Shown here: piece after piece, positions 464 to 24,184 of the stretch
Layout of the letters: every line of letters begins with the position of its first letter
Position numbering within the stretch: the first letter of the stretch is position 1
Origin: a virus
Reading direction: 5' to 3' (one strand)
DNA length: 35,331 nucleotides
IMG/VR virus record: IMGVR_UViG_3300024263_000004
Location: 1-35,331 of that record
Position numbers and translations under genes: made by a program
The notes under the pieces: model-generated
What the model was told of the DNA's origin: nothing
The model's input: the letters and a program-made list of their open reading frames with translations, nothing else
Database searches by the model: none

Positions 464-480
464 ATTGCCCCAACATTTCA

Positions 481-738: not shown

Positions 739-774
739 CCCCTTCTCCTTTCAGCATATATTTTCTGATACTTC

Positions 775-1208: not shown

Positions 1209-1481
1209 TTATTTCCTCCTGTCCTTTATAAGCAAAACAAATATTGCCCCATTCGTGCAGAGATTAATTGAATTGGCACAGATAAATACTTCGGCCTTGA
1301 TATAGATGGCGTGGATTAGATAGCACAGCAAGCACAAGACTAAAAAACTATATGTGCCTAGCGATACATCAGCCAATCTCTTGGTTCTAATAATTGAAAT
1401 TAACTGTGGAATAGGCACGCACAAACCCAATGCTACACCACAATATCCAACTATATATCCAGGGCTAAAGTCTGCGAACAT
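1209..1481 (-). CDS. SemiSWEET/PQ-loop family membrane protein (90 aa)
   Basis: A 90-aa protein with three predicted transmembrane helices at about residues 8-26, 41-60 and 65-84. The first ends in the hallmark Pro-Gln motif (CVPIPQLISIIRTKR), followed by the short basic loop and DVSLGTYSF seen in bacterial SemiSWEETs. Length and topology match that family, whose known members dimerise and carry sugars or related small solutes across the inner membrane. SD AAGGAG precedes the start. It lies in the early arm next to a small membrane protein and downstream of the phosphoesterase gene. Substrate unknown. A PQ-loop protein is an uncommon phage cargo. The fold assignment is fairly secure; the transport role is inferred. 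Confidence 0.8.
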   Translation of the reverse strand: MFADFSPGYIVGYCGVALGLCVPIPQLISIIRTKRLADVSLGTYSFLVLCLLCYLIHAIYIKAEVFICANSINLCTNGAIFVLLIKDRRK

Positions 1482-1498
1482 TTAAGTTACTCCTTATG

Positions 1499-2458: not shown

Positions 2459-2567
2459 CACTCACCTCACAGAGTATATACTCATTATTTTGAACTTCCA
2501 GCCATATTGCTATCTCGTGGTTGTTGGTGTAAAATATCATATATGTTGTGCTACAATTGGTGTTCAT
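2451..2567 (-). CDS. Possible small protein (38 aa)
   Basis: A 38-codon reverse-strand ORF whose ATG overlaps the end of the 57-aa gene upstream and whose TGA overlaps the start of the phosphoesterase gene. It fills an otherwise empty gap exactly, as expected for coupled genes. The sequence (YTNNHEIAIWLEVQNNEYIL) looks like two beta strands. There is no clear SD; coupling would be needed. Unrecognised and only moderately supported. Confidence 0.4.
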   Translation of the reverse strand: MNTNCSTTYMIFYTNNHEIAIWLEVQNNEYILCEVSDA

Positions 2568-2724
2568 TTTGTTTTCTTTTCTCCTTTGGGGGCTTGCTAT
2601 GCGTTACTAGATACCACGCTATTCCCAGCCTATCCCGAAAGAGTAATTCTAATATATCGCCATAAAACTCTCGCCAATTCCGCCTCGTATATTGCCGTAT
2701 CTTTTTCGCCACCCTATTATTCAT
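2551..2724 (-). CDS. Small basic hypothetical protein (57 aa)
   Basis: A 57-aa, strongly basic protein (MNNRVAKKIRQYTRRNWREF) ending in a Lys/Glu-rich tail. The start at 2724 is preferred over an upstream ATG because it follows GGGGGATAAA and overlaps the TGA of the upstream gene as ATGA. It resembles the short basic proteins with a FRDRLGIAW-like helix often seen in phage genomes; role unknown. Its charge suggests nucleic-acid binding. Confidence 0.6.
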   Translation of the reverse strand: MNNRVAKKIRQYTRRNWREFYGDILELLFRDRLGIAWYLVTHSKPPKEKRKQNEHQL

Positions 2725-3041
2725 TTTATCCCCCATTCTTTTAGCTTGGTTTGCCACTCAAACTCCATTATGAGTAATTCATACCCGACAAGCGTGGAGC
2801 CATTATCATCCGCATCTTTGTAGAGAACATGCTTTCTAGCCTTATAGAGTATCCATTCCACTACTTCCCTTATCCCCGCCCTAAATATCATTTCATAAAT
2901 AGCATCTAACTTTACCACATAGTTCACCATCTCCTTGCCATCTGGCATTCTTTTTATAGCGGTTTTCTCGTCTGGGGCTATTACAAAAAAGGTATCACCA
3001 TCTCCCCAATTGATATGGAACAATGTCTCTTTAGCTTTCAT
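2721..3041 (-). CDS. Hypothetical protein (106 aa)
   Basis: A 106-aa protein with an N-terminal beta segment (ETLFHINWGDGDTFFVIAPD) and helical remainder. It starts after AAGGGGGAAGTAA and overlaps the end of the HNH gene by 11 bases. The N-terminus resembles the 'element whose product modulates a value over time' type of small alpha/beta phage proteins, but no family can be named. Expressed in the leftward operon between the HNH gene and the 57-aa basic protein. Confidence 0.6.
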   Translation of the reverse strand: MKAKETLFHINWGDGDTFFVIAPDEKTAIKRMPDGKEMVNYVVKLDAIYEMIFRAGIREVVEWILYKARKHVLYKDADDNGSTLVGYELLIMEFEWQTKLKEWGIK

Positions 3042-3315
3042 TTACTTCCCCCTTAATATATTTATCAGCTTGTTCGTGGCAACTTACTCTATGGACTATG
3101 TAGCAATTCTCTTTAATGTGTATGTTGTATCTTCTGGGTATGATGTGGTGTCCATCAAGATAATCCCAACCATTCGGGTCTATTCTTTGCCCCTTCTTGC
3201 CACACCATTGGCATATATAGCCCAACTCCCTAGCCCTCTCACCAGTTACTTTCTTCCAGTGGGCATTCTTAATCTTTTGTTTATCACTAACCCTTCGTAT
3301 TGCTGTGCGTTTCAT
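3031..3315 (-). CDS. HNH endonuclease (small, phage recombination type)
   Basis: A 94-aa protein with a basic N-terminus (MKRTAIRRVSDKQKIKNAHW), a Cys pair (CQWCGKKG) and the HNH core LDGHHIIPRRYNIHIKENCY, followed by RVSCHEQ. The His-His, Asn and the two CxxC/CxxH-like ligand positions fit a Zn-stabilised beta-beta-alpha metal finger nuclease that nicks or cuts DNA. Its position in the early arm, three genes from the RusA-type resolvase, suggests a role in recombination or DNA processing rather than mobility. Start overlaps the previous stop as ATGA. The family call is good; the exact substrate is unknown. Confidence 0.8.
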   Translation of the reverse strand: MKRTAIRRVSDKQKIKNAHWKKVTGERARELGYICQWCGKKGQRIDPNGWDYLDGHHIIPRRYNIHIKENCYIVHRVSCHEQADKYIKGEVNES

Positions 3316-3584
3316 TTAATCTCTTCTAATAGGGCTTGCCAGCAATCTTCGCATTGATACCTGTGAATAGGCCACATCTCATTATCATTATGAAAGCCAG
3401 CTTGGCACCATTCCATTCCCCACCCCGCCACCCTCTTTAACTGGGCTTTGGCTATATACCTTGCTTGATACAATGGCTTATCCCCTTCTGTATCGCCCAT
3501 TGCCTGCCCCATCAGCATGCCAGCCTTTCTGAATGCTAACGTTTTCATTATCTCTTCATCAGTAAGTAACATCTGTTTCATCAT
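3312..3584 (-). CDS. Hypothetical protein, paralogue of the 15357-15605 gene
   Basis: A 90-aa protein starting after GGAGGTGTAG. Residues 7-50 (LTDEEIMKTLAFRKAGMLMG onwards) and the last eight (QALLEEIK) match the plus-strand gene at 15357-15605 almost residue for residue, including long identical DNA blocks. The middle differs: here it carries WCQ, FH, IH and CEDC, a plausible metal site, whereas the other copy has a Ser/Asp-rich helix. This points to recent duplication with replacement of the central segment. The conserved part is helical. Function unknown. Confidence 0.75.
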   Translation of the reverse strand: MMKQMLLTDEEIMKTLAFRKAGMLMGQAMGDTEGDKPLYQARYIAKAQLKRVAGWGMEWCQAGFHNDNEMWPIHRYQCEDCWQALLEEIK

Positions 3585-3785
3585 CTACACCTCCCAATAT
3601 ATTCTCTCCCATACAGCCTTGTTCCCAACATAAGCATACTCGGGGTCTTTATCTTTTGTATGATGCATCTCCAATGCGACCCCGCAATTTAGGCAAGTGC
3701 CATAATGGGTGTGCATACGGCAACAATCCTCGTGTTCGCTTGGCAGGAATAGTAAGTTAATAGACTGGCACTCTGGGCACTTCAT
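3585..3785 (-). CDS. Zinc-ribbon protein (66 aa)
   Basis: A 66-aa protein with CPEC at residues 3-6 and CLNC about 30 residues later, plus an intervening CC and several His. This is a typical zinc-ribbon or zinc-finger layout. SD AAGGAGG seven bases before the ATG. It sits one base after the next gene's start in a tightly packed set. Such mini zinc proteins often bind nucleic acid or a host enzyme, but no partner can be named. Confidence 0.7.
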   Translation of the reverse strand: MKCPECQSINLLFLPSEHEDCCRMHTHYGTCLNCGVALEMHHTKDKDPEYAYVGNKAVWERIYWEV

Positions 3786-4126
3786 TTGTTTGCCTCCTTA
3801 ATAGTTATCCACAATTTAGGTTCACCATAGGTTACATCCCCATCTTCCCACCTCATATCTCTATCGTTCACCCCGCTACTTTCTTCAATGGCATCCAGTA
3901 TAACCTTGCTACAGTTACTTAAATCTGGCTGTGAACGCTTGTCTTTGAACTGACCATCTAAGCGAACTTTCAGGGGTAGCTTCCAGTCCTCAATATGAGC
4001 CGTCTTTATCTTCCAGCCCAATAGTTCCATCCAATCCCTGGTCTCTCTCTTGGTAAACCACCTATACTTATAATGATTGACGCTCAGTTCCTTCCCTATA
4101 TAGTCCATCTCTACTGTTACTTTCAT
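3782..4126 (-). CDS. rusA: RusA-family Holliday junction resolvase
   Basis: A 114-aa protein. The segment KRSQPDLSN, then ILDAIEES and VNDRDM, matches the RusA signature in which conserved Asp residues bind Mg2+ (here about D68, D78 and D88/D90). Homodimeric RusA enzymes resolve Holliday junctions formed in replication or recombination. Length fits the family (about 120 aa). I chose the ATG at 4126 rather than one nine codons upstream because it overlaps the ATPase gene's TGA as ATGA. It follows directly after the RecA-like ATPase gene, consistent with a replication/recombination module. Confidence 0.85.
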   Translation of the reverse strand: MKVTVEMDYIGKELSVNHYKYRWFTKRETRDWMELLGWKIKTAHIEDWKLPLKVRLDGQFKDKRSQPDLSNCSKVILDAIEESSGVNDRDMRWEDGDVTYGEPKLWITIKEANK

Positions 4127-5094
4127 TTGTCTATATACCCCACACCCATACATTCCTCACACTCACCCCTAGTTGTATATCCCTTAGCCCAACACTTATT
4201 GCACTTCTTAATTTCACGAATATTATGGAGTTGCGTTCCGCCATTGACGACTTCAAAGCCCCACATTCTACCATCCACAAATCCCTTCTGTGCCTTAGCC
4301 TTGATTACAGTAAGCCTCCTCTGGTAGCTACCCATTGGGTCTATTGAAATATAGAAATCCGCTAAATCAATAGTGGGAGCACCTCCTCGCCCCAGCTTCC
4401 TATCCTCATTCTTTTGGAGCACCGCAACGAGAACACCATTCCCCACCGCTGTCTTCGCACTTTCAATTATCTTACCTATCTTGTAGAAATCCTCTCCCAA
4501 GTTTATCCAGTCTATAAAGTTTATCTTCCCTGGCTCTACCCAAGTATCATAATCTTCCTTAACAGGCATAATGGTAAACTTCAGCTTTCCATTACTATCT
4601 TCCCAGTTAGCCCAATCCATTCTCCGCAACCGCCTGACAAACTTCGGACTCAATTTGCCATCAACCCTATCATACTCATTGCCCATTAAAAGGCAGGGGT
4701 ATTTGTCCATATTCAACGCTAGCATATTTATTACCCAAAGCGTCTTTGCCGAGTTAGAAACACCTGCTATCACGATACAATCCCCCTCATCCATTTCTAT
4801 CAAGTCTTCAAAGCCAAAGGAACTAGCATCCTCGTGTCCATAGGGGAAGATTAAATCAATGGGCTTGTTTTCACTTGCCCCTAACGAAGTGATTGGCTTA
4901 ATCTGCTTTAGCCTCTTGTAAAACCCCCTACCAATACGCTTGAGTAGCTTCTCCTTAATAAAGCGGTTGAATGATGTGTAAAGAACTGAGTTTTCGGGGT
5001 CTATCTCGTGCTTCCTGCGAAAGGTCTCAATGTGAAACTCTGGTTCTTCTAACTCTATCAGCCCCCAAACCTTATCTTTGGTTAGCTCTGCCAT
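4123..5094 (-). CDS. RecA/DnaB-like ATPase with N-terminal winged helix and C-terminal zinc finger
   Basis: A 323-aa protein. Residues 15-60 look like a winged helix (IETFRRKHEIDPENSVLYTS then LLKRIGRGFYK). A P-loop follows at about 111-118 (GVSNSAKT), in which the usual second Gly is Ala. Then come LLMGNEYD and a strand with VLVAVLQKNED, as in RecA/DnaB-type ATPases. The C-terminus ends in two CxxC pairs (CNKC and CEEC, about 296-315) like a DnaJ-type zinc finger. Likely a replication or recombination motor, perhaps the phage helicase; the closest family cannot be fixed without a search. Preceded by a repeat array at 5108-5198 and followed by rusA. Confidence 0.75.
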   Translation of the reverse strand: MAELTKDKVWGLIELEEPEFHIETFRRKHEIDPENSVLYTSFNRFIKEKLLKRIGRGFYKRLKQIKPITSLGASENKPIDLIFPYGHEDASSFGFEDLIEMDEGDCIVIAGVSNSAKTLWVINMLALNMDKYPCLLMGNEYDRVDGKLSPKFVRRLRRMDWANWEDSNGKLKFTIMPVKEDYDTWVEPGKINFIDWINLGEDFYKIGKIIESAKTAVGNGVLVAVLQKNEDRKLGRGGAPTIDLADFYISIDPMGSYQRRLTVIKAKAQKGFVDGRMWGFEVVNGGTQLHNIREIKKCNKCWAKGYTTRGECEECMGVGYIDK

Positions 5095-5107
5095 AGATTA
5101 TCCTTTC

Positions 5108-5198
5108 GTAAGTTTGGTAAGTCTGTAAGTATTGTAAGCCATTGTAAGTTTCCCCTAGCTAATTGGTAAGTTTGGTAAGGATTTAGCTACAAACTTAC
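5108..5198. repeat. Iteron-like array of seven CTTAC 9-mers
   Basis: On the minus strand, seven direct copies of a 9-mer close to CTTACCAAA run into the ATPase start. Plus-strand GTAAG cores begin at 5108, 5117, 5125, 5134, 5144, 5166 and 5175 (steps 9, 8, 9, 10, 22, 9). One inverted core (CTTAC) lies at 5194-5198. The copy nearest the gene merges with its SD (AAAGGA). It fills the widest noncoding gap of the inner left arm. Possible roles are a replication origin with initiator sites, or an operator for autoregulation. Confidence 0.8.
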
Positions 5199-5209
5199 AG
5201 CTCTATATA

Positions 5210-5491
5210 CTATTCTTTCTTATTAGAATACTTATACTTTCGTTTATATCTCCCCAAATGGTCATTAAAGATTTTCTTTAGAGATAGTATTTGATTAGTG
5301 TTATTCTCTATGCTGTGAGCCTGCTTCCCGCTAAGGTTAGAATGAATGTGGTGATATATGATGTGCTGTTCCACTGGTTCGGCTGGCTCTTCTTTTGGTT
5401 CTAGTGGTGGTAAATAACCATCTGGACTTACCCCCCTAAACTTTTGATTATTTCTACCCACATAGAACGGCTGCGTATAGTCCTCACTCAT
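5210..5491 (-). CDS. Hypothetical protein (93 aa)
   Basis: A 93-aa protein: an extended acidic/proline-rich N-terminal half (PPLEPKEEPAEPVEQH) followed by a His-containing helix and a very basic C-terminus (LGRYKRKYKYSNKKE). SD GAGGAATTGAG precedes the ATG. It lies directly upstream of the repeat array and ATPase gene, so its product could be a DNA-binding accessory factor such as a loader or initiator. That is inference from position and charge only. Confidence 0.55.
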   Translation of the reverse strand: MSEDYTQPFYVGRNNQKFRGVSPDGYLPPLEPKEEPAEPVEQHIIYHHIHSNLSGKQAHSIENNTNQILSLKKIFNDHLGRYKRKYKYSNKKE

Positions 5492-5500
5492 CTCAATTCC

Positions 5501-5803
5501 TCACTGAAGCTTGCGACTATCTAAGTCTCTCCGAGCTAATATCGCTTCATACATAGGGTCGCCCTCATAAACAACAAAGCCTCTCTTCTTAATTGGTGGT
5601 TTCATGGCAACATCAAAACCCTTCAGGCATTTCTTGCAGTCTTCTGGGCTTTTCCAATTCTGGCTCTTGAGGTAGGAGATGATTTCACCAGAAAGTTCAT
5701 TGGCCCATTGTTTTATATGTGGTGGGGTAGTGCCATTCCCGACACGACTTCTTACGCATAATTCGGATAAACCTATTCCCAGCCCTTCTTTTATATTACT
5801 CAT
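5501..5803 (-). CDS. Hypothetical protein (100 aa)
   Basis: A 100-aa protein. The central part (HIKQWANELSGEIISYLKSQ) is helical, with CKKC at about residues 57-60, and a basic segment (KPPIKKRGF) follows. It starts after a GGGGGGAGGA-type SD. It is transcribed ahead of the 93-aa protein and the ATPase, so it may belong to the replication cluster. I recognise no family. The lone CKKC does not form a full zinc site by itself. Confidence 0.6.
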   Translation of the reverse strand: MSNIKEGLGIGLSELCVRSRVGNGTTPPHIKQWANELSGEIISYLKSQNWKSPEDCKKCLKGFDVAMKPPIKKRGFVVYEGDPMYEAILARRDLDSRKLQ

Positions 5804-5861
5804 TCCTCCCCCCTTATCCTTTCTATGATAAAAAGATACAAAACGTAAGGTAAATCTAATA

Positions 5862-6665
5862 TCACTTCGGCGTCTCCTGTCTTAATTTATGGTTAGTATA
5901 AGCCCACTGAGGAGCGTAACCTTCAACTCCCTTTGAGTAATCACGCCCTAATAGTGGCTTCAAATTATCCTTAAGAAACACTGGCACACCAGCCTTATCA
6001 CAGGCTCTTACTATCTCAGATACCCACTCTATCTTGGGGGGCTTGTAGGGCTTTGTCTGTGCTCCGATGATTACCCAATCCACATAAGTCACTAATTCAT
6101 CAACCATATCTTGGCAAATGTATAACTCGTGATAAATTCTTTCTAGCATTGGTTCAAGCGATACATACTTAATCTTAGCTTTTATATCTGATAGCCCTTC
6201 TATGGCTTGCTTAAACATCTTTGCGTTAGTAGCCGTTACCCCGACATAACAGTTCGGAGGGAAGGGGCTGAACTTGATTAGGTTCTGTGGTTGCTTGGTG
6301 AGTAGATAGAAGCGGTGCTGAGGATTGCTTTTAATTACATCAAGCACTCGCCTCGTCCACTCTTCAGGGATACCGATACCAAATAGGTCAGACATATCGC
6401 AAACGAATATCCCTTTGGGTTGAACCTTACTAGCCCCACCAACTGTAAAGTGCTTTGATTTCCAAGTCGGGTCTAATTCTCTTACCCTATCTTCCCAGAA
6501 ACGGGGATAGAAGGGGTCATCGTTGGCACTAAGCGATTGGTCGCAAACATTGCTATTAGCTAGATACCCAGACTTCAACCGTCCATTAGCCAGCTTCCTA
6601 GCGTAGCAGTAGGGGCATCCGTTGAGACAGCCAGTAATAGGATTCCAAGTCATTCCCTGTACCAT
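5862..6665 (-). CDS. DUF5131 (phage Gp37/Gp68) radical-SAM-like protein, apparent 5' frameshift
   Basis: A 267-aa ORF with TWNPITGCLNGCPYCYARK at its start. This has the CxxxCxxC pattern of a radical-SAM [4Fe-4S] site (C13, C17, C20) typical of the DUF5131/Gp37-Gp68 family, and YLLTKQPQ, GVTA and YVSLEPM later, also typical. Family members usually begin with an (I)EW...NP...G segment before TWNP. That segment (MNKTLIEWVKNPDGT) is encoded just upstream from an ATG at 6702 with a good SD (GAAGGG), but in a frame offset by +1. The internal ATG at 6665 has no SD. So this is a frameshifted gene, a sequencing or assembly error, or programmed shifting. The chemistry of the family is unknown. Confidence 0.8.
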   Translation of the reverse strand: MVQGMTWNPITGCLNGCPYCYARKLANGRLKSGYLANSNVCDQSLSANDDPFYPRFWEDRVRELDPTWKSKHFTVGGASKVQPKGIFVCDMSDLFGIGIPEEWTRRVLDVIKSNPQHRFYLLTKQPQNLIKFSPFPPNCYVGVTATNAKMFKQAIEGLSDIKAKIKYVSLEPMLERIYHELYICQDMVDELVTYVDWVIIGAQTKPYKPPKIEWVSEIVRACDKAGVPVFLKDNLKPLLGRDYSKGVEGYAPQWAYTNHKLRQETPK

Positions 6666-6703
6666 CGGGGTTCTTCACCCATTCTATAAGTGTCTTATTC
6701 ATT

Positions 6704-6805
6704 CTAACCCTTCTTTATACCTACTTCCAAGCCCACACTAACACCCAAGACATAGATACAGACTATTAAGATAATCCACCACCAGTTTTTATTTAGCCAG
6801 TTCAT
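6704..6805 (-). CDS. Tiny single-pass membrane protein (33 aa)
   Basis: A 33-codon ORF from the ATG at 6805, preceded by GGAGAAGGA. It reads MNWLNKNWWWIILIVCIYVL and ends GLEVGIKKG: a Trp-rich interfacial start, one hydrophobic helix and a basic tail. Its TAG lies one base beyond the upstream ATG (6702) of the DUF5131 gene, so the two are coupled, which also supports 6702 as the true start of that gene. Function unknown; a membrane-targeted host-interaction peptide is possible. Confidence 0.6.
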   Translation of the reverse strand: MNWLNKNWWWIILIVCIYVLGVSVGLEVGIKKG

Positions 6806-6817
6806 TCCTTCTCCTTA

Positions 6818-7000
6818 TTAGTCTTTGGTCTCACCTGGCAGTAGGTGAATAATGGCTTGAGTTCCCATTGGGCGCATACCCTCAACCCGTTTCAGGGCTT
6901 CAATGCCGAGTCGAACTGCTTTATGGTAAGCAGGAGCCTCTTGCCCTGTGGTAAGAATAGGCGTGTCCTTTAGAATTTCAATAGCTTTATCTATGTTCAT
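6818..7000 (-). CDS. Hypothetical phage protein (60 aa)
   Basis: A 60-aa protein starting MNIDKAIEILKDTPILTTGQ, with HKAVRLGIEALKRVEGMR. This two-helix pattern (IDKAIEIL ... AVKLGIEALKR) is very common among small phage and prophage proteins of unknown role. SD GGAGAAAACAG. Located between the DDIPF-tailed protein and the 33-aa membrane protein. Confidence 0.65.
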   Translation of the reverse strand: MNIDKAIEILKDTPILTTGQEAPAYHKAVRLGIEALKRVEGMRPMGTQAIIHLLPGETKD

Positions 7001-7039
7001 TCTGTTTTCTCCTTATATGCTAAAGCTAATTCAACCCCC

Positions 7040-7651
7040 CTAAAATGGAATGTCATCAAGTTCAATTCTATCCATTTTTGCCCTGACTTCATTTTTAAGC
7101 AATGCCTGTTTACCGCTATCCATTGCCTTGATAGCCTTAATATATCCCTGTCCTTGCTTGACAGTTACCCCCAATGTCTTCAATTGCTCGGCTATCCATC
7201 GCTTATCATTTATAGTTTCTAGCGATTTGAGCCACCATTCCTCATCAAATTCTCCTCCCTCTCTATCGCCTTGTCCAAGTCCTTCTCTAGTATCTCGTCC
7301 AGTTTTCTCAGCAGGTATCTTAATAGAAACATCTTTGCCTCCTTTTAGAGAACCATTTGCCCAATCAGTTAGGTAGGCTTCCCGAGTAATAACTAACACA
7401 TCATTGTCTTTGCGTTTTCCCGCCCTCCAGTCTTCCCCAATCTCCATTACAAAAGTTCTTCGGTCAACCTTATCCTCGTCTCTACCCTTATAAGTGGGAC
7501 TTGCTGGCTTTTCCTTTATCTCGGATTTGGGTTCATTACACCACTCGCCAGTAGGCTCGCCGTCCTCATCTAGGATAGGATGGGCATAACCTTTCATTTT
7601 ACCCTTCTTAAACCAAGTCATTTGATGTTCTTTACACCAGTGTTCAGCCAT
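7040..7651 (-). CDS. Zinc-site protein with SSB-like DDIPF C-terminus (203 aa)
   Basis: A 203-aa protein. The N-terminus has WCKEH, a KGKMKGYAHPI segment and WCNE, a probable Cys/His metal site. The middle is charged and likely disordered, with many Lys/Glu/Gly. The helical C-terminal region ends in ELDDIPF, the same acidic-Pro-Phe tail with which bacterial and phage SSBs recruit replication proteins. No OB fold is evident. It may be a replication accessory protein or a divergent ssDNA-binding protein; the tail alone does not prove it. SD GGAGGAACAAA; it overlaps the 61-aa gene upstream. Confidence 0.65.
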   Translation of the reverse strand: MAEHWCKEHQMTWFKKGKMKGYAHPILDEDGEPTGEWCNEPKSEIKEKPASPTYKGRDEDKVDRRTFVMEIGEDWRAGKRKDNDVLVITREAYLTDWANGSLKGGKDVSIKIPAEKTGRDTREGLGQGDREGGEFDEEWWLKSLETINDKRWIAEQLKTLGVTVKQGQGYIKAIKAMDSGKQALLKNEVRAKMDRIELDDIPF

Positions 7652-7829
7652 TTTGTTCCTCCAATAGGTGTTTGTATTCTTCTGTGATTTTATATTTCAA
7701 TTTAGCCTCATATATCTCAGTCCCAACCCTTAAGTCCTCCAACCACTCACCTAGTTCGTTCTGCTTAATGATGTTAGCGTTCATACGCTCAGTTTCATTC
7801 GGGTCATAAGCTATAAATACCTTTTCCAT
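7644..7829 (-). CDS. Hypothetical protein (61 aa)
   Basis: A 61-aa, largely helical acidic protein (MEKVFIAYDPNETERMNANI ... EEYKHLLEEQNG). It starts after ATAGGAGGTTAAT and overlaps the next gene by eight bases, so it is coupled to the DDIPF-tailed protein. Unrecognised. It could be a partner of that protein. Confidence 0.6.
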   Translation of the reverse strand: MEKVFIAYDPNETERMNANIIKQNELGEWLEDLRVGTEIYEAKLKYKITEEYKHLLEEQNG

Positions 7830-7830
7830 A

Positions 7831-7920
7831 TTAACCTCCTATAATATAGATTATCCCAAAGACAAGCCCATAGAGAATACAAATGAAGAACCAGATACCT
7901 GTTAAAATCTTATCTTCCAT
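7831..7920 (-). CDS. Tiny membrane peptide (29 aa)
   Basis: A 29-codon ORF from the ATG at 7920 (SD GGGGGAATA). It is almost entirely one hydrophobic helix: MEDKILTGIWFFICILYGLV followed by FGIIYIIGG. The acidic start and lack of a basic tail differ from the 33-aa membrane peptide at 6704-6805. It sits between two soluble hypothetical proteins with only a base or two of spacing. Function unknown. Confidence 0.55.
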   Translation of the reverse strand: MEDKILTGIWFFICILYGLVFGIIYIIGG

Positions 7921-7930
7921 TATTCCCCCT

Positions 7931-8293
7931 TCAGGGCTTGCTTTCCAGTATTGCTCCATTCGCATAGCCCAGTTTATATCCATCTTCATAGGCGAGCCGT
8001 TTGGCTACTTCTATATCAGGATAGAGGGCTAGGATTTGGGATATGCCAGTTTCACTACTTACTTGTTCTATGGTATGGCTTTCTAGGTATGTTTTTAATC
8101 TCTCCATTTTTACCTCCCTCAAATCAGGTCTATCCAGCCTTTGCTTGAGGACTTTGGCTAGTTGGGCTTCTGCTATGGCTTTATAATCTCCTGTCGCATA
8201 CACACCTCTATCTGCTGGCGACCAGTGGTAGTAAGCCTTTAATGTATCTACTATCTGATTAGGTGTCAGCGACATATCATCCTGTTTACTCAT
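7931..8293 (-). CDS. Hypothetical protein, HTH-like (120 aa)
   Basis: A 120-aa helical protein. Residues LTPNQIVDTLKAYYHWSPAD and the later HTIEQVSSETGISQILALY resemble paired helices of a helix-turn-helix, but no DNA-binding family is certain. It ends AYEDGYKLGYANGAILESKP. SD AAGGAGG and an ATGA overlap with the 54-aa zinc protein upstream. A transcriptional role is possible. Confidence 0.6.
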   Translation of the reverse strand: MSKQDDMSLTPNQIVDTLKAYYHWSPADRGVYATGDYKAIAEAQLAKVLKQRLDRPDLREVKMERLKTYLESHTIEQVSSETGISQILALYPDIEVAKRLAYEDGYKLGYANGAILESKP

Positions 8294-8454
8294 TTAATTA
8301 CCTCCTTTAAGTTTTCTTCAGCCATGTCTCTGAGTTTAGCCCTATGTTTTAGGTAAACGAAGCACTCTGAGCAATATCCTTCCTGACAGAATATGTTCTT
8401 GAATGGACACCACAGCCCCTTGTTATTCTCAGTAAAGCTAAACTTGCGTTGCAT
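8290..8454 (-). CDS. Mini zinc-finger protein (54 aa)
   Basis: A 54-codon ORF from the ATG at 8454, inside the 3' end of the upstream 84-aa gene. Four Cys are arranged as WCPFKNIFCQEGYCSECF, a compact metal-binding core, followed by a basic then acidic helix (YLKHRAKLRDMAEENLKEVI). Its TGA overlaps the next ATG (8293). Small zinc proteins like this recur along this arm. No function can be named. Confidence 0.65.
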   Translation of the reverse strand: MQRKFSFTENNKGLWCPFKNIFCQEGYCSECFVYLKHRAKLRDMAEENLKEVIK

Positions 8455-8692
8455 TCTCTATCTCCTTTAAGCGGGCTTGCCAGTGTGGGTCGCTGATACA
8501 ATGCCAGAGTTGCCCATCGCTATCATCCCTTGCCCTCACTTGCTCAAACCATTCCCGCCACTCTTTGTTGGTTAGTTCCTGTTGGGCTTTTATTGCTTCT
8601 ACATAAGCATCTGGCTTAACAAGGGTTTCGCCCGTTTCTTCGTCTATTTCAAAGATAGCACTATTTAATTCATCGGGTGTTAGCAATCTCAT
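8438..8692 (-). CDS. Hypothetical protein (84 aa)
   Basis: An 84-aa protein with many charged helices (KPDAYVEAIKAQQELTNKEW, REWFEQVRARDDSD) and an acidic N-terminal beta-hairpin (FEIDEETGETLVKP). SD GGGGGGAAATA. It overlaps the 54-aa zinc protein downstream by 17 bases. Unrecognised; no catalytic motif visible. Confidence 0.6.
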   Translation of the reverse strand: MRLLTPDELNSAIFEIDEETGETLVKPDAYVEAIKAQQELTNKEWREWFEQVRARDDSDGQLWHCISDPHWQARLKEIENATQV

Positions 8693-8855
8693 TATTTCCC
8701 CCCTCTATTGTTATCTTCCCCTCTGTTGTATCAGGGAACTGTTTGCAAAAGGCTTTGAAGGCATAGTTAAACATCTTTGACTTAGAAGAGCAGGGTTTTG
8801 CCTTGCCTTTTACTATCCACCCATTCTCTTTCTTTTCATATTCAAACACTATCAT
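8670..8855 (-). CDS. Hypothetical protein (61 aa)
   Basis: A 61-aa alpha/beta protein (MIVFEYEKKENGWIVKGKAK ... FCKQFPDTTEGKITIEGGNN). I use the ATG at 8855, which follows GGAGAGAAGAA, instead of one 11 codons upstream without an SD. It overlaps both its neighbours. Similar KEKNGWxVxG proteins occur in other phages, but no role is known. Confidence 0.6.
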   Translation of the reverse strand: MIVFEYEKKENGWIVKGKAKPCSSKSKMFNYAFKAFCKQFPDTTEGKITIEGGNNEIANTR

Positions 8856-8997
8856 TTCTTCTCTCCTTATCATTCTTAGGAAATACAACCAAGCAGTTGC
8901 GACACCTATAACAACTTACACCATAAGGTTCAGTCCAGTATGACCCACAATGAGGACACTTAATAGGTCTATCCCTTGACTTAATTGCTGTTTTCAT
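8842..8997 (-). CDS. Zinc-ribbon protein (51 aa)
   Basis: A 51-codon ORF from the ATG at 8997, reading IKCPHCGSYWTEPYGVSCYR then CRNCLVVFPKND. CPHCG ... CYRCRNC is a clear zinc ribbon, with a basic N-terminus (MKTAIKSRDRP). It ends inside the start of the 61-aa gene downstream. Probably binds nucleic acid or a host protein; no specific function can be assigned. Confidence 0.7.
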   Translation of the reverse strand: MKTAIKSRDRPIKCPHCGSYWTEPYGVSCYRCRNCLVVFPKNDKERRNDSV

Positions 8998-8999
8998 TA

Positions 9000-9398
9000 T
9001 CACTCCAATAATTCCTTGTTTTCATAGATGTTGCCGATTACTTCACAATACTTTGCCTCAAAATCATTGAAGAGGTTATCTGTATATGGAGTGCTAACGG
9101 CATACCCGCCGTGTTCTAGTGTGAACCTAACACACTTGTAGGTTGGGGGCCACTTCTTTTGGCAGTTATTGTAAGCACCCAAGCGAACTATATCCCCCTC
9201 ATATATATCCTTGCCCTGCTTATCAGGTAAACTAGTGTATTGCCCTATCGTTTCAGGGTCTAGCACTTTAGTTGCTACATACATCCAAAAGGTGGCTAAG
9301 TCTATCTGGCTGGATAGTCGCTTGTCTGGATATAAGCTACCATATAACCACTCACCCGTTTGGGTATGCTTTGCCCTAAACTTTATTTCTCTGTTCAT
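9000..9398 (-). CDS. YopX-family phage protein
   Basis: A 132-aa protein with the features of the YopX family: REIKFRAKHTQTGEWLYGSL at the start, IGQYTSLPDKQGKDIYEGDI centrally and CEVIGNIYENKELLE at the end. Length matches the family (about 130 aa). YopX proteins are widespread in phages of many hosts and form a beta-barrel; their function is unsettled. SD GAGCAGGGATA; it is coupled to the zinc ribbon upstream (stop overlapping start). Confidence 0.85.
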   Translation of the reverse strand: MNREIKFRAKHTQTGEWLYGSLYPDKRLSSQIDLATFWMYVATKVLDPETIGQYTSLPDKQGKDIYEGDIVRLGAYNNCQKKWPPTYKCVRFTLEHGGYAVSTPYTDNLFNDFEAKYCEVIGNIYENKELLE

Positions 9399-9574
9399 TA
9401 TCCCTGCTCCCTATAATTGGTTTTGTGGCACTCAGGACAATCAAAGAACTTCTTACCCTTCTCATACCAGACTGAAGCACCGCAATAATCACAGTTAGTT
9501 ATGAATTTTGGTGCATACTGTCCAACCTCACAGCTTCTTTGCTTTAGACCAGCAATAAGTAATTCACTTGCCAT
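9398..9574 (-). CDS. Zinc-ribbon protein (58 aa)
   Basis: A 58-codon ORF from the ATG at 9574 after GGGAGGTAAATAAA. It has CDYCGASVWYEKGKKFFDCP followed by ECH: two Cys pairs about 18 residues apart, a classic zinc ribbon. The N-terminal helix is MASELLIAGLKQRSCEVG. Its TAA touches the YopX start. Function unknown. Confidence 0.7.
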   Translation of the reverse strand: MASELLIAGLKQRSCEVGQYAPKFITNCDYCGASVWYEKGKKFFDCPECHKTNYREQG

Positions 9575-9601
9575 TTTATTTACCTCCCTATTGATATAGA
9601 G

Positions 9602-9799
9602 CTAACCCTTAACTCTTACTGGTATTCTGCCCTCTTTAATAAACCTTAGGGCGTGGTCAATAGCCTTACCCGATGGAAGTTCCGCCAAAGAATAACCGCC
9701 CCACTTGCCATCAATTTGCTCTCTAATAAATATGCTTCTCTTGTAAAGCGAAATATAATCGCACAAATCCTCAACCGTCTTGACATCTTCATATTTCAT
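9602..9799 (-). CDS. Hypothetical protein (65 aa)
   Basis: A 65-aa protein (MKYEDVKTVEDLCDYISLYK ... GYSLAELPSGKAIDHALRFI) with a helix-strand-helix pattern. Preceded by GGGAG at a rather long distance. Short phage proteins of this general pattern are common, but I cannot name a family. It stands between the 69-aa gene and the zinc ribbon. Confidence 0.6.
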   Translation of the reverse strand: MKYEDVKTVEDLCDYISLYKRSIFIREQIDGKWGGYSLAELPSGKAIDHALRFIKEGRIPVRVKG

Positions 9800-9830
9800 A
9801 TCTTTTCATACTCCCTTTTAACTTGTTGGG

Positions 9831-10040
9831 TTATTTACCCTCTACTTTAGCTAGTGCCCGCTTTGCTGGTTGCGTAGTAAATGAGTCAATATCATAACTA
9901 TCATCATCCACTACTTTGACCAATTCCTTCAGTGCCTCATATAAATCTGGTGCTGACTTATGGAGTGGGCAGTATTCAATGGCAGTAATAACATGTCCAA
10001 GTTGCTTTAATTTACAACCACATTGTCCTGTGTATTCCAT
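9831..10040 (-). CDS. Hypothetical phage protein with APDLYEALKE motif (69 aa)
   Basis: A 69-aa protein with CGCK and CPLH (a probable Cys/His metal site near the N-terminus) followed by SAPDLYEALKELVKVVDDDS, a helix found in many small phage proteins. It ends AKRALAKVEGK. SD GGGAGGCTTGAG. No known function. Confidence 0.65.
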   Translation of the reverse strand: MEYTGQCGCKLKQLGHVITAIEYCPLHKSAPDLYEALKELVKVVDDDSYDIDSFTTQPAKRALAKVEGK

Positions 10041-10054
10041 CTCAAGCCTCCCTT

Positions 10055-10111
10055 TTATTTATATCCCCACCCGAACTTACCATTTCTGCTTCGCCAGCTA
10101 GGTCTTTTCAT
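10055..10111 (-). CDS. Possible 18-aa basic peptide
   Basis: A very short ORF (MKRPSWRSRNGKFGWGYK) with a strong SD, AAAGGAGGCTAAA, in front of its ATG at 10111. The peptide is basic and Trp/Gly-rich. The SD strength and the otherwise empty slot support translation, but a chance ORF cannot be excluded. Confidence 0.4.
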   Translation of the reverse strand: MKRPSWRSRNGKFGWGYK

Positions 10112-10147
10112 TTTAGCCTCCTTTAATACTCTTTAGTGGTGAAGGGA

Positions 10148-10318
10148 TTAGCTACAAGTATGCCGTATCTCAAAATCCTTTATAGCCCTTATCCACTCTT
10201 CGTAAATATCCACTTGGTCACACCAAGATATAGCGGATTGCAACCTTTCAGCTCCTACTATATCCATTAAGGTTATGGATTCATTACAAGTTGGGCATTT
10301 GAATACTAAATTGTCCAT
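10148..10318 (-). CDS. Small protein with Cys pair (56 aa)
   Basis: A 56-codon ORF from the ATG at 10318 after GGAGAAGAGGA. It opens MDNLVFKCPTCNESITLMDI, a half zinc ribbon, and has two further Cys (SWCDQ and HTCS) that could complete the site. The second half is acidic and helical (QVDIYEEWIRAIKDF). Unrecognised. Confidence 0.6.
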   Translation of the reverse strand: MDNLVFKCPTCNESITLMDIVGAERLQSAISWCDQVDIYEEWIRAIKDFEIRHTCS

Positions 10319-10380
10319 TCCTCTTCTCCTTTTATATTTACTTTAACCTTGTCAGTGCTGGCTAATCTTAATTTTTGTTT

Positions 10381-10578
10381 TTATGGATAGTCCTTCATAG
10401 GTTTTAGGGCATCTGCACCCTTTAATGTCTTAAAGTAGTCAATTTCTTCTTGGGTGGCTCGTTCTACGCTATCAACACCACTACGTCCCCATTTTTCTAC
10501 TCCCTCACTATACGCATTCCGCTTGGTGGGAACTTCTACCACAAACCACCCCATTCCAGTAACTTTATATGTTGCCAT
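10381..10578 (-). CDS. Hypothetical protein (65 aa)
   Basis: A 65-aa protein (MATYKVTGMGWFVVEVPTKR ... EEIDYFKTLKGADALKP). The ATG at 10578 lies six bases from AAGGAGG; an in-frame TTG two codons earlier is too close to that SD. An N-terminal beta pair is followed by helices. No family recognised. Confidence 0.6.
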   Translation of the reverse strand: MATYKVTGMGWFVVEVPTKRNAYSEGVEKWGRSGVDSVERATQEEIDYFKTLKGADALKPMKDYP

Positions 10579-10584
10579 CCCCAA

Positions 10585-10774
10585 CCTCCTTGTTGCCTTT
10601 AGTAACTCAATACTGGGCAGGAATTACACGGCAGCCCTTTAACAGTCTTCTTGCCTACCCTATGTAGTCGGTTTGGGGCTTGCTTCACTGTCAAGCAATT
10701 TAATGCCCTACTCCCTTCATCCTAATCTCCCTGCACTCACCCCTGCCCAGTATTCAGTTTGTTAAAGTTCTAGC
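10585..10774. other. Gene-poor stretch with 13-bp inverted repeat
   Basis: No confident gene. A perfect 13-bp inverted repeat has arms AATACTGGGCAGG (10609-10621) and CCTGCCCAGTATT (10742-10754), separated by 120 bp. A reverse-strand 29-codon frame (GTG at 10688 to TAA at 10599-10601) with CNSC near its end has no SD. The arms could close a long hairpin in the leftward transcript, or be sites for a dimeric protein. Confidence 0.6.
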
Positions 10775-11011
10775 CTAACTCTTAGCCTCTTCAGTTGTTT
10801 CTTTATCATTCCCCACTTCATTCGGTGGATTAAAATGTTTGTCACAAGCAATATGCGGTATCTCATAAGGACTGATAGGCTCAGGGCATTCTAGCCCATA
10901 ATGGTCTCCATAGCGTTGCCCACAATAATAGCAAGGTGTATCGTAACTTACTCGGACATCCCCAAATTGGCGTTCCATTTGCCTTAGATATTCATCTCCC
11001 ATTTTACTCAT
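10775..11011 (-). CDS. Hypothetical protein with CxxC motif (78 aa)
   Basis: A 78-aa protein starting MSKMGDEYLRQMERQFGDVR, with CYYCGQRYGDHYGLECPEP and a later CDKH, together a probable metal site. The ATG at 11011 is chosen because it lies six bases from GAGGAGG; an ATG five codons earlier does not. The C-terminus is acidic. It overlaps the GTG-started gene upstream. Function unknown. Confidence 0.6.
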   Translation of the reverse strand: MSKMGDEYLRQMERQFGDVRVSYDTPCYYCGQRYGDHYGLECPEPISPYEIPHIACDKHFNPPNEVGNDKETTEEAKS

Positions 11012-11162
11012 CCTCAGCCTCCTCAATTTCTATACCAAGGTCATCGGCTTCATATTTGCCAGTTCGTAGACTTATCTCAAGGCGGTCAATTAAATTGACT
11101 ACTTCAACCCGTGTCAAGTGGTAAGTATAACCCTTGCCATTAGCCCACTTAATAATTTCCAC
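11004..11162 (-). CDS. Small acidic protein with GTG start (52 aa)
   Basis: A 52-codon frame beginning at a GTG (11162) after GAGGGGGTTTAAT and ending at TAA (11004-11006), overlapping the next gene by eight bases. It reads EIIKWANGKGYTYHLTRVEV and later LEISLRTGKYEADDLGIEIE, ending EEAEDE: beta-rich then acidic. The SD, the overlap and the protein-like composition support it. Unrecognised. Confidence 0.55.
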   Translation of the reverse strand: MEIIKWANGKGYTYHLTRVEVVNLIDRLEISLRTGKYEADDLGIEIEEAEDE

Positions 11163-11174
11163 ATTAAACCCCCT

Positions 11175-11276
11175 CTACTTATAAGTAAACCAACCGTGTT
11201 CTTTACAATAACCTGATATCCTAAAGAACCCTCGTATAATATCAATGGCTCGCTTATTACAGTATGGACACTTCAT
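11175..11276 (-). CDS. Tiny zinc-ribbon-like protein (33 aa)
   Basis: A 33-codon ORF from the ATG at 11276 after AAAGGAGGTTAGAG. It reads MKCPYCNKRAIDIIRGFFRI, then GYCKEHGWFTYK. CPYC plus CKEH gives a four-ligand zinc site in a minimal ribbon. A strong SD supports expression. One of several such mini-proteins on this arm. Confidence 0.6.
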   Translation of the reverse strand: MKCPYCNKRAIDIIRGFFRISGYCKEHGWFTYK

Positions 11277-11348
11277 CTCTAACCTCCTTTGTTACCCTAA
11301 CTCTACCACCACTAACTAATGTCCTCATAGCTGAGCGGGTAAATTGGT

Positions 11349-11675
11349 TTAATGTGGGCAGATTGCCAATCCTTCAGGATAATGCTGGTCGATTGGTTGT
11401 AATTCGGGTTTGACTAGGTATAGCGACCATCCTCGTGGGTCTGACTGGTGATAGGCGATAAGGTTATAATTTTTGGCTATGTTCCCAGCCTGTTCCTCTA
11501 GGCGGTCGCTCCTCTTTTCTTGCCTTCTACTTAATCCCCAGTTACAAGCGCGTTCGTCAAGTTGGTGTAAGCGGTGAGAGATTCGCTGCAAGATTAGGGC
11601 ATCATCTCCATCTATTTTATAAATCTTAGCAATCTCAATAAGGTTGCGTTCTCTAACTTGTCTTAGGCTCTCCAT
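11349..11675 (-). CDS. Hypothetical protein (108 aa), first gene of the leftward arm
   Basis: A 108-aa helical, charged protein (MESLRQVRERNLIEIAKIYK ... LQRISHRLHQLDERACNWGL). Its N-terminal 35 residues could be a helix-turn-helix but lack a firm signature. SD CAGGAGGTTAAAA. It is the first leftward gene after the control region, a place often used by early regulators. Function unknown. Confidence 0.6.
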   Translation of the reverse strand: MESLRQVRERNLIEIAKIYKIDGDDALILQRISHRLHQLDERACNWGLSRRQEKRSDRLEEQAGNIAKNYNLIAYHQSDPRGWSLYLVKPELQPIDQHYPEGLAICPH

Positions 11676-11852
11676 TTTTAACCTCCTGTGCTACCTGCCA
11701 TCTTGGTCAGGGTTTATGCTAAGGTTTGCCTACCCGCCCAGCTATCAAGACATTAGTTTTGTGCCCTCTGCTGTCTCCTAGCTTGCCCCGTTAAGGTTGA
11801 CATCGGGCTAGTGTCTAGCTTCTGGTTATTCAATTCTTAATGTGCTACCCTT

Positions 11853-11880
11853 AGTTTACACCCAATTGATTAGAAGTCAA
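11853..11880 (-). promoter_or_regulatory. Candidate leftward early promoter
   Basis: Minus strand: TTGACT (11875-11880), 16-bp spacer, TAAACT (11853-11858). The -35 matches sigma-70 at five of six positions and the -10 at four of six. Transcription would start near 11846 and give a leader of about 170 nt before the 108-aa gene. Position between divergent arms supports it. Confidence 0.45.
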
Positions 11881-12108
11881 GCATTTTCGGTTGTCTATTT
11901 ACTTGTTGTGAGGGATAGCTTGCGATGGCTATGGCTATATAACTTATTGCGCTGAGACTAAATGCTACCATTATCTCTGTTTTACTCGCCAAAGCTCACC
12001 ATTTTAGATGTCTATCACCATTACAAAGGACTCAAAGGGAAGACGAATAGATGATTTTGGGCTAGGCTATCTATAAAACATAATAAGCTTTTAATTTAGT
12101 AGGCGATG

Positions 12109-12117
12109 TGGTATAAT
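12109..12117 (+). promoter_or_regulatory. Extended -10 rightward promoter (TGGTATAAT)
   Basis: TGG followed directly by a consensus TATAAT (12112-12117) forms an extended -10 element, which can work without a good -35; the -35 region here is only TTTTAA. Transcription would start at about 12124 and run through both hairpin elements into the packaging genes. Confidence 0.5.
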
Positions 12118-12133
12118 TAGAGGGTATTATGTT

Positions 12134-12178
12134 GGGAGGGCGACTCATAGGTATAGGGTTCTATGAGAACTCTCTCCT
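12134..12178 (+). promoter_or_regulatory. Two-stem RNA hairpin element, copy 1
   Basis: Outer stem 12134-12140 with 12172-12178 (7 bp including G-U pairs), small internal loop, inner stem 12144-12151 with 12160-12167 (8 bp), loop TATAGGGT (12152-12159). Copy 2 lies 109 nt downstream. Every base difference between the copies inside the stems keeps the pairing, including two full compensatory swaps. That points to a selected RNA structure rather than a protein-binding sequence. Confidence 0.7.
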
Positions 12179-12242
12179 TAATAAGGGGGCACCTAATGAG
12201 AAGACCAATAATAGGAACTGGGAGATAATAGGGTATCATGAT

Positions 12243-12286
12243 GGGAGAGCATCTTATGGGTATAGAGTCCCATAGGGTTCTCTCCT
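12243..12286 (+). promoter_or_regulatory. Two-stem RNA hairpin element, copy 2
   Basis: Outer stem 12243-12249 with 12280-12286, inner stem 12253-12260 with 12269-12276 (8 bp), loop TATAGAGT (12261-12268), which matches the copy-1 loop at seven of eight bases. The flanking sequence AGGGTAT[TC]ATG is also shared. Possible roles are antitermination, binding of a phage RNA-binding protein, or translational control. Confidence 0.7.
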
Positions 12287-12571
12287 ACCTGAGTCGAGGA
12301 GTGGGTGGGGCAAGGAATACTCAAGCGTAGTATCGTGTAGGCTCAAGTCAAAGACTGTGGGGTGAGGCAAACTTGCTGATTCTACTATGGCAATGATGCT
12401 ACTACAAGAGGCGTGGTGGAGAGACACCAGCCCCATATAGTTCTAGGGTGTTACAAAGGGACTCTAAGTTATAACTATAAGATACTGCGGGCTTTCATAT
12501 CTGCAATTATATAATCACCAAATAACACATTAAACCTATGTTAACTAAATACTAAACAATAAGGTAACTAT

Positions 12572-12910
12572 ATGCCATTCCAATCAGGTAATAAACTAGG
12601 TCAAGGTAGACCTAAGAAAGCCAAGGCTCAAGCTAAAGACTGGGCTGAGGCTCATCCTTATGCTGTAGCTGAACTAATGCAAGTCCTCTATGATGAGGGA
12701 ATAAGGGGAGATATAGATTCGGCTAAGTATGTCATAGATAGAATAAGGGGTAAGCCTAAGATTTCAGTGGACTCTAGGGTTAAGCACGAATTGGAGTTAA
12801 CCGCTGAGGACATATGGGCGATACGTCAGTTATCCGAGCGAGAAAACGAAGCATTTATTTCACAGACTTCGCCATTACAACTAGAAGGGGGTAAAGATGC
12901 CGCAGAATAA
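12572..12910 (+). CDS. Putative terminase small subunit (DUF5681-like N-terminus)
   Basis: A 112-aa protein opening MPFQSGNKLGQGRPKKAKAQ, the F.xGNKLGxGRPK motif seen at the start of many phage DUF5681-type and small-terminase proteins. It continues with helices and AKYVIDRIRGKPKISVDSRV, typical of the DNA-binding and oligomerisation parts of these proteins. Small terminases recognise the packaging site and guide the large subunit. It is the first gene of the rightward arm, ahead of terL, which fits. SD AAGG is modest. Good but not certain call; a general DNA-binding protein is the alternative. Confidence 0.6.
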   Translation: MPFQSGNKLGQGRPKKAKAQAKDWAEAHPYAVAELMQVLYDEGIRGDIDSAKYVIDRIRGKPKISVDSRVKHELELTAEDIWAIRQLSERENEAFISQTSPLQLEGGKDAAE

Positions 12911-13601: not shown

Positions 13602-13745
13602 ATGACTAAGCAAGAAGAGAAAGGGTGGTGTCCTCAGCATGGTTATCCCGAACCTTGTGCTAAGTGTAATGGTATGACTAAGGCTGAGTGGGATAAATTC
13701 TTTGAGAGCCTTGCGAAAGCAGTAGAGCCATTGATTAAGGAATAA
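13602..13745 (+). CDS. Mini zinc-binding protein (47 aa)
   Basis: A 47-aa protein (MTKQEEKGWCPQHGYPEPCA then KCNGMTKAEW). CPQH and CAKC give four plausible zinc ligands. The ATG at 13602 is chosen for its SD (AAAGGGAGTAATA); an upstream in-frame ATG at 13545 lacks one. Its TAA overlaps the terL ATG (TAATG), so the two are coupled. Role unknown; small coupled genes before terL sometimes encode terminase partners. Confidence 0.6.
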   Translation: MTKQEEKGWCPQHGYPEPCAKCNGMTKAEWDKFFESLAKAVEPLIKE

Positions 13746-15376
13746 TGACAAAAGAAGAACTAGATAGAGAGATTATACTCTGTGCGTTCAAGCCCTCTAG
13801 TGAACTGACATCTAAGGAGAAGACGGCTTGGGCGATGGAGCAGGAGTATTGTTCTCGGTCTTTTTTAAGGCTTTTGAGGTGGGCGAAGATAGTTGAACCC
13901 CCTACTCAAACGAACCTTGGGGGTGTTATAGATTTTGAGTTATGGGAGCACTTACAAAAGTTTATCAGATTACTATTAAGTAAACGGTTGATTAGCTTAT
14001 TAAAATCTCGTCAGATAGGGGCTTCGTGGACAATAGCGGTATATGTTTTATGGCACGCTCTCTTTCATACTGGTTCTACATGGATGTTGTTCTCAAAGGG
14101 AGAGGGGGAGGCTATGGAGCTTCTGTCTAAGTGTTACAAGGCATATAATCAACTACCTCAATTTTTGAAGTTTCCATTGAAGCCTGATAGTGCCACGGAG
14201 ATGGGTATTCCTAAAATGAACAGTAGTATTAAAGCACTGGCGGCTACTGAGACAGCGGGAATATCGTTCACCGCTTCGGGTGTGGTTTGTGATGAACACG
14301 AAGAACATCCCTATGCTGACCAAAACTACTTGTCGGCTAAACCCACCATAGATGCTGGCGGTCAGTTTATCAGCATTTTCACGGTAAACAAATTAAAACC
14401 CGACACACTAGCCAAGTCCATATTTAGAGGGGCAGTTGATAAAGTAAATGGCTTTACTCCCTTGTTTTTTCCTTATGATGTTCGTATGGGGCGGGATAGA
14501 GAATGGTATGATGAAACGAAGCGGAACATTCCAGTTAGAGACTTAGCCAAACTCACCCCTGACCTTTATATGGAGCAGAACTATCCCCGCTCCATTGAAG
14601 AGGCATTAAGGGCTACTCAAACAGTCTCGGCATTTGACCTGAAAGTTCTTGATGAGATGGCAGAGGATACGAGAGGCTCTATTAAAATTGATGATATGAA
14701 CATAGACCCCTTGAAAGTTCATATTTACCAGAAGTTTCATATTGGCGAATATTACATTGCTTCCTCAGACACCTCACACGGCATTGGGAAGGATTTTAAT
14801 GTTACTGTTGTTATGAATGTTAAGACTGGTGCTGTTGTAGCTGATATTATGGACAATACTATCTCGCCAGAGGAACTAGCCCTCCATAGCGTTAAATTAT
14901 TAAAATTATATAGAAACCCACTCTGGTTTATAGAGGACAATGATTGGGGTAGGGTAACTATCACTACCGCCCAAAATCTAGGATATAAGAACTTCGGATA
15001 TAGAGATGCCAATAAAACGAAAATTGGCTGGCATACTGAAGAGAGGTCAAGGTTTGATTTATTCGGTGGTTTAATACCCGCAATTAATAATCGGCAAATA
15101 ACAATCTTCAATAGTTCTGGTCTGAAGCAGTTTTATGATATAATAAGGAATATAGAGAAGAATGGTCGCATTGAAGCAATGGGGGCAAGGCACGATGATT
15201 ACCCCGTTGCCGTTGGTATTGCTTGGGCAAAGAAAGACGAAGTCCACACAGAGATGTTTACCAGCAAGCCAATAGAAACACTAACATTCAAAGGCACAGA
15301 CAAAGCTATATCTGGTTGGATAACTGGGGATAATCCTATTGTTAAAGGGAGGGGTGATGATATTACTTACCGATGA
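13745..15376 (+). CDS. terL: Terminase large subunit (ATPase-nuclease)
   Basis: 543 aa. The N-terminal ATPase has the terminase-type Walker A KSRQIGASW (about 87-95; the R-Q-x-G-x-S variant) and Walker B GVVCDEHE (D183, E184). The C-terminal RNase H-like nuclease has its acidic residues in SDTSHGIGKD (D342), FIEDNDWG (E397) and RHDDYPVAVGIAW (about D484/D485). This motor pumps DNA into the prohead and cuts it from the concatemer. Length is normal. Coupled to the zinc protein upstream; the portal gene is three genes downstream, the usual packaging order. Confidence 0.95.
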   Translation: MTKEELDREIILCAFKPSSELTSKEKTAWAMEQEYCSRSFLRLLRWAKIVEPPTQTNLGGVIDFELWEHLQKFIRLLLSKRLISLLKSRQIGASWTIAVYVLWHALFHTGSTWMLFSKGEGEAMELLSKCYKAYNQLPQFLKFPLKPDSATEMGIPKMNSSIKALAATETAGISFTASGVVCDEHEEHPYADQNYLSAKPTIDAGGQFISIFTVNKLKPDTLAKSIFRGAVDKVNGFTPLFFPYDVRMGRDREWYDETKRNIPVRDLAKLTPDLYMEQNYPRSIEEALRATQTVSAFDLKVLDEMAEDTRGSIKIDDMNIDPLKVHIYQKFHIGEYYIASSDTSHGIGKDFNVTVVMNVKTGAVVADIMDNTISPEELALHSVKLLKLYRNPLWFIEDNDWGRVTITTAQNLGYKNFGYRDANKTKIGWHTEERSRFDLFGGLIPAINNRQITIFNSSGLKQFYDIIRNIEKNGRIEAMGARHDDYPVAVGIAWAKKDEVHTEMFTSKPIETLTFKGTDKAISGWITGDNPIVKGRGDDITYR

Positions 15377-24144: not shown

Positions 24145-24184
24145 GGTAATGGTACTTTAACAACTTAATAATTAGAGCCTTTAG

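Follow-up and report, generated by a model that had tools for sequence, protein, structure and literature searches.

Does the pair of hairpins that precedes the packaging genes of a phage represent a conserved RNA, and on what would such an RNA act? The question is raised by an intergenic region in the window analyzed here, a 35,331-base virus record from IMG/VR; the region lies between the leftward genes, which fill positions 1-11,675, and the packaging and structural genes, which run rightward from 12,572 (Table 1). The original prediction described in this region two copies of a two-stem hairpin with compensatory changes; its coordinates, stems, loop, and listed substitutions were all found to be correct by sequence inspection and folding.

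Table 1. Features of the packaging leader and the first packaging genes in the window
Feature	Position	Strand	Remarks
Probable extended -10 promoter TGGTATAAT	12109..12117	+	Consensus match; predicted transcription start near 12124
Copy 1, unpaired 5' flank AGGGTATTATGTT	12121..12133	+	Common to copy 2, L042, L126, and L149
Copy 1, hairpin: 7-bp outer stem, internal loop, 8-bp inner stem, loop UAUAGGGU	12134..12178	+	
Copy 1, alternative three-way junction	12144..12200	+	Predicted; 12144-12152 pairs with 12191-12200
Copy 2, unpaired 5' flank AGGGTATCATGAT	12230..12242	+	Repeat of the copy 1 flank
Copy 2, hairpin: 7-bp outer stem, 1x1 mismatch, 10-bp inner stem, loop UAUAGAGU	12243..12286	+	
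Remaining non-coding leader	12287..12571	+	No conservation or unusual structure (z +0.56)
First operon gene, 112 aa, probable small terminase subunit (terS)	12572..12910	+	Weak family match, phrog_15261, E 8e-4
Large terminase subunit, terL	13745..15376	+	phrog_2, E 5e-23; Pfam Terminase_6N

Two hairpin copies in the packaging leader

On sequence grounds, the TGGTATAAT box ending at 12117 is a probable extended -10 promoter; its -35 element is weak, the default promoter scan did not list it, and it has GTGGTATAAT in common with a site just upstream of the terS-like gene in a related contig, L036. If the predicted start is used, part of the copy 1 flank is absent from the RNA of this promoter. 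The first gene of the operon, whose product has homologs upstream of terL in four relatives (L003, L010, L013, and L017), is probably terS, judging by its position. Comparison of the leader between copy 2 and this gene with the relatives gave no similarity except for a short chance-level match.

The two copies have the following features: (i) the repeat unit is longer than originally described, as it also includes a 13-nt unpaired 5' flank, AGGGTATYATGWT (12121-12133 and 12230-12242), the complete units being 12121-12178 and 12230-12286; (ii) the copy 2 hairpin is the strongest 45-nt fold on either strand of the 35-kb window (-25.5 kcal/mol, z -5.3), and the copy 1 hairpin ranks 12th (-18.8 kcal/mol, z -2.8; model score 78.6 bits); (iii) copy 2 has two extra pairs adjoining the internal loop; and (iv) the 15 shared pairs comprise 10 identical pairs, 3 pairs with one-sided changes, all between G-U and Watson-Crick, and 2 pairs changed on both sides. 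None of the 15 pairs is broken between the copies, which agrees with the original prediction. In a longer transcript, copy 1 is predicted to be bistable, the three-way junction and the hairpin being isoenergetic (-25.0 versus -25.0), and in the growing chain the hairpin is predicted to form before the junction. The surroundings of copy 1 in the window are not unusually structured (z +0.6 and +0.8).

The covariation between the two copies is weak by itself, because all seven stem changes are transitions. The probability that all pairs are kept is 0.0003 under uniform substitutions, 0.004 if 67% of the changes are transitions, and 0.056 if only transitions are allowed. Thus, homologs were sought in other phages, and it is these homologs, not the two copies, that are the real proof of a conserved RNA.

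Several other features of the window were noted. The non-coding leader of the leftward operon (11691-11847) has 73% identity to positions 2387-2530 of L036, and part of it matches positions 149-178 of L005; the proteins encoded near this leader are not similar to those in L036 and L005 despite the leader identity. A 28-nt inverted repeat (11314-11341 and 11731-11758; 89% in the blast match) flanks a 108-aa ORF at 11349-11675. Two strong hairpins not followed by a T run are located at 29622-29696, between the ORF at 29215-29625 and a possible zinc-finger-like ORF starting from about 29704. The stretch 24115-24235 holds a good promoter (TTGAAA-18-TATAAT with TG) and, within the next 45 nt, a very stable T-run hairpin 40 nt before the gene at 24276; similar sequences are present in L016 (9456-9524) and L022 (10592-10673), and the arrangement looks like a conserved attenuator before capsid genes.

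Homologous elements and their covariation

Relatives of the window phage were collected via the large terminase, with terL as the anchor gene, and the portal proteins, yielding about 100 related IMG/VR loci. The covariance model of the two copies, a check proposed with the original prediction, found nothing beyond the window itself in the first 36 sources; it then identified one clear match, a third copy, in L042 (2082-2141, E 4e-6), a contig whose terL matches that of the window at 58%. We also used a DNA pattern in which the flank and the loop were fixed and part of the 5' arm was specified only as purine. This pattern matched 43 IMG/VR stretches, which were scored with a refined three-member model that includes L042. 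L042, L126, and L149 stand out with scores of 52-75 bits (74 bits for L126 and 52 bits for L149) and folding energies of -24.6 to -29.5 kcal/mol, against -13.5 kcal/mol or weaker for the remaining 40 stretches; the structure is therefore not a product of the DNA pattern. By blastn, copy 2 and the L149 element are 81% identical over 54 nt. The set of full members thus comprises copies 1 and 2 and the elements of L042, L126, and L149, those of L042 and L126 being near-identical.

Two further contigs contain partial copies. The degenerate copy in L090 (1200-1249; 27 bits) has a shortened loop, has lost the flank, and is followed by the T run TTCTTTTT; it could itself be a terminator. In L086, only the inner hairpin is present, identical at 28 of 29 positions to that of copy 2, within a non-coding stretch of about 640 nt in an early operon far from terL. 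A second match in L090 and a match in L025 (18 bits) were treated as chance.

Other searches gave no additional members. The exact long DNA pattern had no match in IMG/VR, and a second DNA pattern had two matches there, both lacking the hairpin and one lying inside a coding frame. Against GenBank phages, the window leader DNA had no match, and the leaders of L126 and L149 had none or chance-level ones. The small terminase protein used as a search probe gave no matches, and the genome collection searched with the portal alignment contained no relatives, so that no host was assigned.

The five full members retain pairing with covariation. With correct gap placement, a hand count gives 73 of 74 paired cells kept and two-sided changes in 7 of the 15 pairs; in the model alignment, the tool counts two-sided changes in 6 pairs and 9 cells. 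Standard pairs make up 98.6% of this alignment versus 88.2% in shuffles (0 of 500), the covariation score is 0.527 versus 0.311 (0 of 500), and pairing falls to 44-64% when the partners are slid. The sole mismatch of L042 is an intact pair in the near-identical L126, and the one outer base pair lost in L149 is lost from both arms together. Homologs with broken pairs, which would have contradicted the original prediction, were looked for, and a single broken cell among 74 was found; its description of the hairpins as a functional RNA is therefore strongly supported.

The element is about 58 nt long and consists of the flank and an irregular hairpin of 15-18 bp. Its unpaired parts are conserved in sequence, with the consensus RGGUAUYAYGWU in the 5' flank and UAUWGRRU in the loop. 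The minus-strand fold is weaker (-17.6 versus -26.2 for copy 2), and together with the G-U pairs this identifies the plus-strand RNA, not the DNA, as the conserved molecule; the G-U pairs also rule out a DNA palindrome. A protein-coding repeat was rejected, as L042 and L126 have ACG in place of the flank ATG, indels occur inside the hairpin, and the substitutions are not codon-like. Against Rfam 15, the window, L042, L126, and L149 had no match at the gathering threshold, and window positions 11680-12600 had none up to E 5. The element is a previously undescribed small phage RNA family with a clear consensus.

Genomic context and candidate functions

In all four contigs with full-length elements, the element is on the terL strand, upstream of terL by about 1.6 kb in the window, 0.4 kb in L042, 0.5 kb in L126, and 1.0 kb in L149. 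L042, L126, and L149 have one unit each, and the window has the tandem pair. The downstream terminases belong to different families: phrog_2/5989 in the window, phrog_5902/2 in L126, and phrog_979 with a phrog_51 TerS in L149. In L042 and L126, the element is inside a 134-nt block of 98.5% identity, while their terminases differ; the identity runs to an inserted 140-aa gene, after which the sequences diverge. Outside the element, no sequence is clearly conserved among all members. The element is exchanged horizontally between phages. It is also optional in this phage group, since the relatives L005 and L036 have an equivalent promoter close to the terS-like gene and lack the element.

Individual contigs show further features near the packaging promoters. 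In L149, a consensus promoter, TTGACA-17-TATACT (2316-2344), lies about 370 nt upstream of the element, and in L010 and L013 terminator-like hairpins, in place of the element, follow the late-operon promoters. A 22-nt operator-like sequence, CTCGCMAAWGCTCACCATTYTA, at window positions 11985-12006 resembles L149 2276-2297, in both cases upstream of packaging promoters of phages with different terminases. The 140-aa ORF of L126 (5330-5757) lies, by comparison with L042, between the element and a 25-codon ORF and has TTAAACTAA on both sides; this is a possible insertion site for cargo genes. L042 contains a structured RNA of about 240 nt (1500-1809; z -3.6) with a closing 9-bp helix, followed by a tRNA-like sequence just under the Rfam cut-off. 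In L149, a structured RNA with a tRNA-Leu-like start, GUGGCGGAACAGGUAGACG, is located directly before the element (2570-2725; z -3.1) and is recognised by neither ARAGORN nor Rfam.

Its own transcript is the most likely target of the element. Tentatively, at a probability of about 0.35, we regard it as a mobile cis-acting leader RNA that is read by a host factor and aids elongation in an antitermination-like manner. The element is read as sense-strand RNA in the leader of the DNA-packaging operon and would act in cis on this RNA. As the downstream terminases are of different families, a terminase is an improbable reader of the element, and a host protein, the simplest partner common to all carriers, is more probable; as the element is at the head of a long operon, the transcription complex is the first candidate partner. 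By position, the bound factor would be RNA polymerase during elongation or a factor that travels with it, and transcription of the long structural operon would then continue past pauses and terminators. Close downstream of the element, the terminator scan of the window found no T-run terminator; farther on in the same operon, the terminator-like hairpin at 24185-24235, which has a T run, is a candidate target. A phage protein shared by the carriers may instead be the reader, since L042 and L126 are short fragments. Against the elongation reading are the lack of a T-run terminator close downstream in the window, the dispensability of the element in L005 and L036, the inner hairpin in the early operon of L086, and the T run in L090.

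Control after transcription is a close rival, only slightly less probable than the elongation reading. An RNA-binding protein of host or phage, or a nuclease, would read the flank and the loop and thereby set the stability, processing, or translation of the packaging mRNA, the simplest form being a 5' hairpin stabiliser. Such a role is suggested by a stable hairpin with a conserved unpaired flank and loop, by its location in the packaging operon at, or close to, 5' ends or junctions between genes, and by the predicted switch fold of copy 1, which would cover a possible start at 12197. However, this switch fold has no apparent counterpart in copy 2, and the distance to the start codon and Shine-Dalgarno sequence is inconsistent: 285 nt of leader follow copy 2, compared with about 10-20 nt in L042, L126, and L149.

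A somewhat less probable, though still close, rival is that larger phage non-coding RNAs contain the hairpin as a sub-domain or 3'-end signal, which in the window would survive as a bare tandem pair. The structured stretches upstream of the element in L042 and L149, one of them with a weak tRNA match, the T run after the L090 copy, and the long non-coding stretch around the L086 inner hairpin are consistent with this explanation. On the other hand, copy 1 of the window starts at the predicted transcription start in surroundings of ordinary structure, and clear conservation among all members is confined to the element.

A site acting at the DNA level near the terminase genes, such as a pac site, a replication origin, an operator dyad, or a recombination hot spot, is very unlikely. 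The element adjoins terminase genes in four phages and has mosaic joints nearby, as seen between L042 and L126, but the G-U pairs and one-sided G-U changes fit only plus-strand RNA, and the inner-hairpin copy of L086 lies far from terL. A pac or cos site specific to one terminase lineage was rejected, as the same element precedes terminases of different families. A selfish palindromic repeat of the REP or MITE type, serving no phage function, is highly improbable: it would account for the horizontal spread, the patchy presence (including absence from L005 and L036), and the tandem copies in one genome, but not for the same strand and position before packaging genes in 4 of 4 full-length contigs, the conserved unpaired flank and loop, or the compensation that preserves pairing.

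To our knowledge, few phage RNA elements act by themselves on transcription, put of HK022 being an example. The present element has real covariation support, precedes packaging genes from different families, and has a size that permits a direct reporter test. Action on RNA polymerase would make it an independent example of elongation control by RNA only; without such action, it still represents a new phage RNA family whose consensus is clear. The more specific claim, that it constitutes a second, unrelated family of protein-independent antitermination RNAs outside lambdoid phages, a module passed among unrelated phages of one host group and acting via the host RNA polymerase, is distinctly unlikely.

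Comparison with known systems

Like intrinsic terminators and attenuators, the element is a strong GC-rich hairpin close to a promoter; unlike them, it has no T run after the hairpin in any of the five full members, and its flank and loop are conserved. The absence of a T run after both window copies led us to reject an intrinsic terminator.

The lambda nut site consists of a linear boxA and of boxB, a 15-nt hairpin with a 5-nt loop. The likeness to nut is one of layout only: in the element too, a conserved linear stretch lies 5' of a hairpin whose loop is conserved, but boxA differs in sequence and boxB in size.

The put RNA of phage HK022, about 70 nt long, forms two adjacent stem-loops, binds the zinc-binding domain of the beta' subunit, and is found in early operons (PMC9378689). 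The original prediction considered the two hairpins comparable in layout to the paired put RNAs, and kinship with put is unsupported. Model R3 found nothing in the HK022 genome and model R1 found only noise in 6 kb of HK022, both being one-way tests with models built from the present element. The layout also differs: each unit has one irregular hairpin with a conserved single-stranded 5' flank and stands before packaging genes, and membership in the put family was rejected, because in place of two adjacent stem-loops the window has units separated by 64 nt and each of the other contigs has a single unit. The element resembles put in being a phage RNA with irregular helices in a promoter-proximal leader, in having no obvious protein dedicated to it, and as a candidate for acting directly on the transcription complex.
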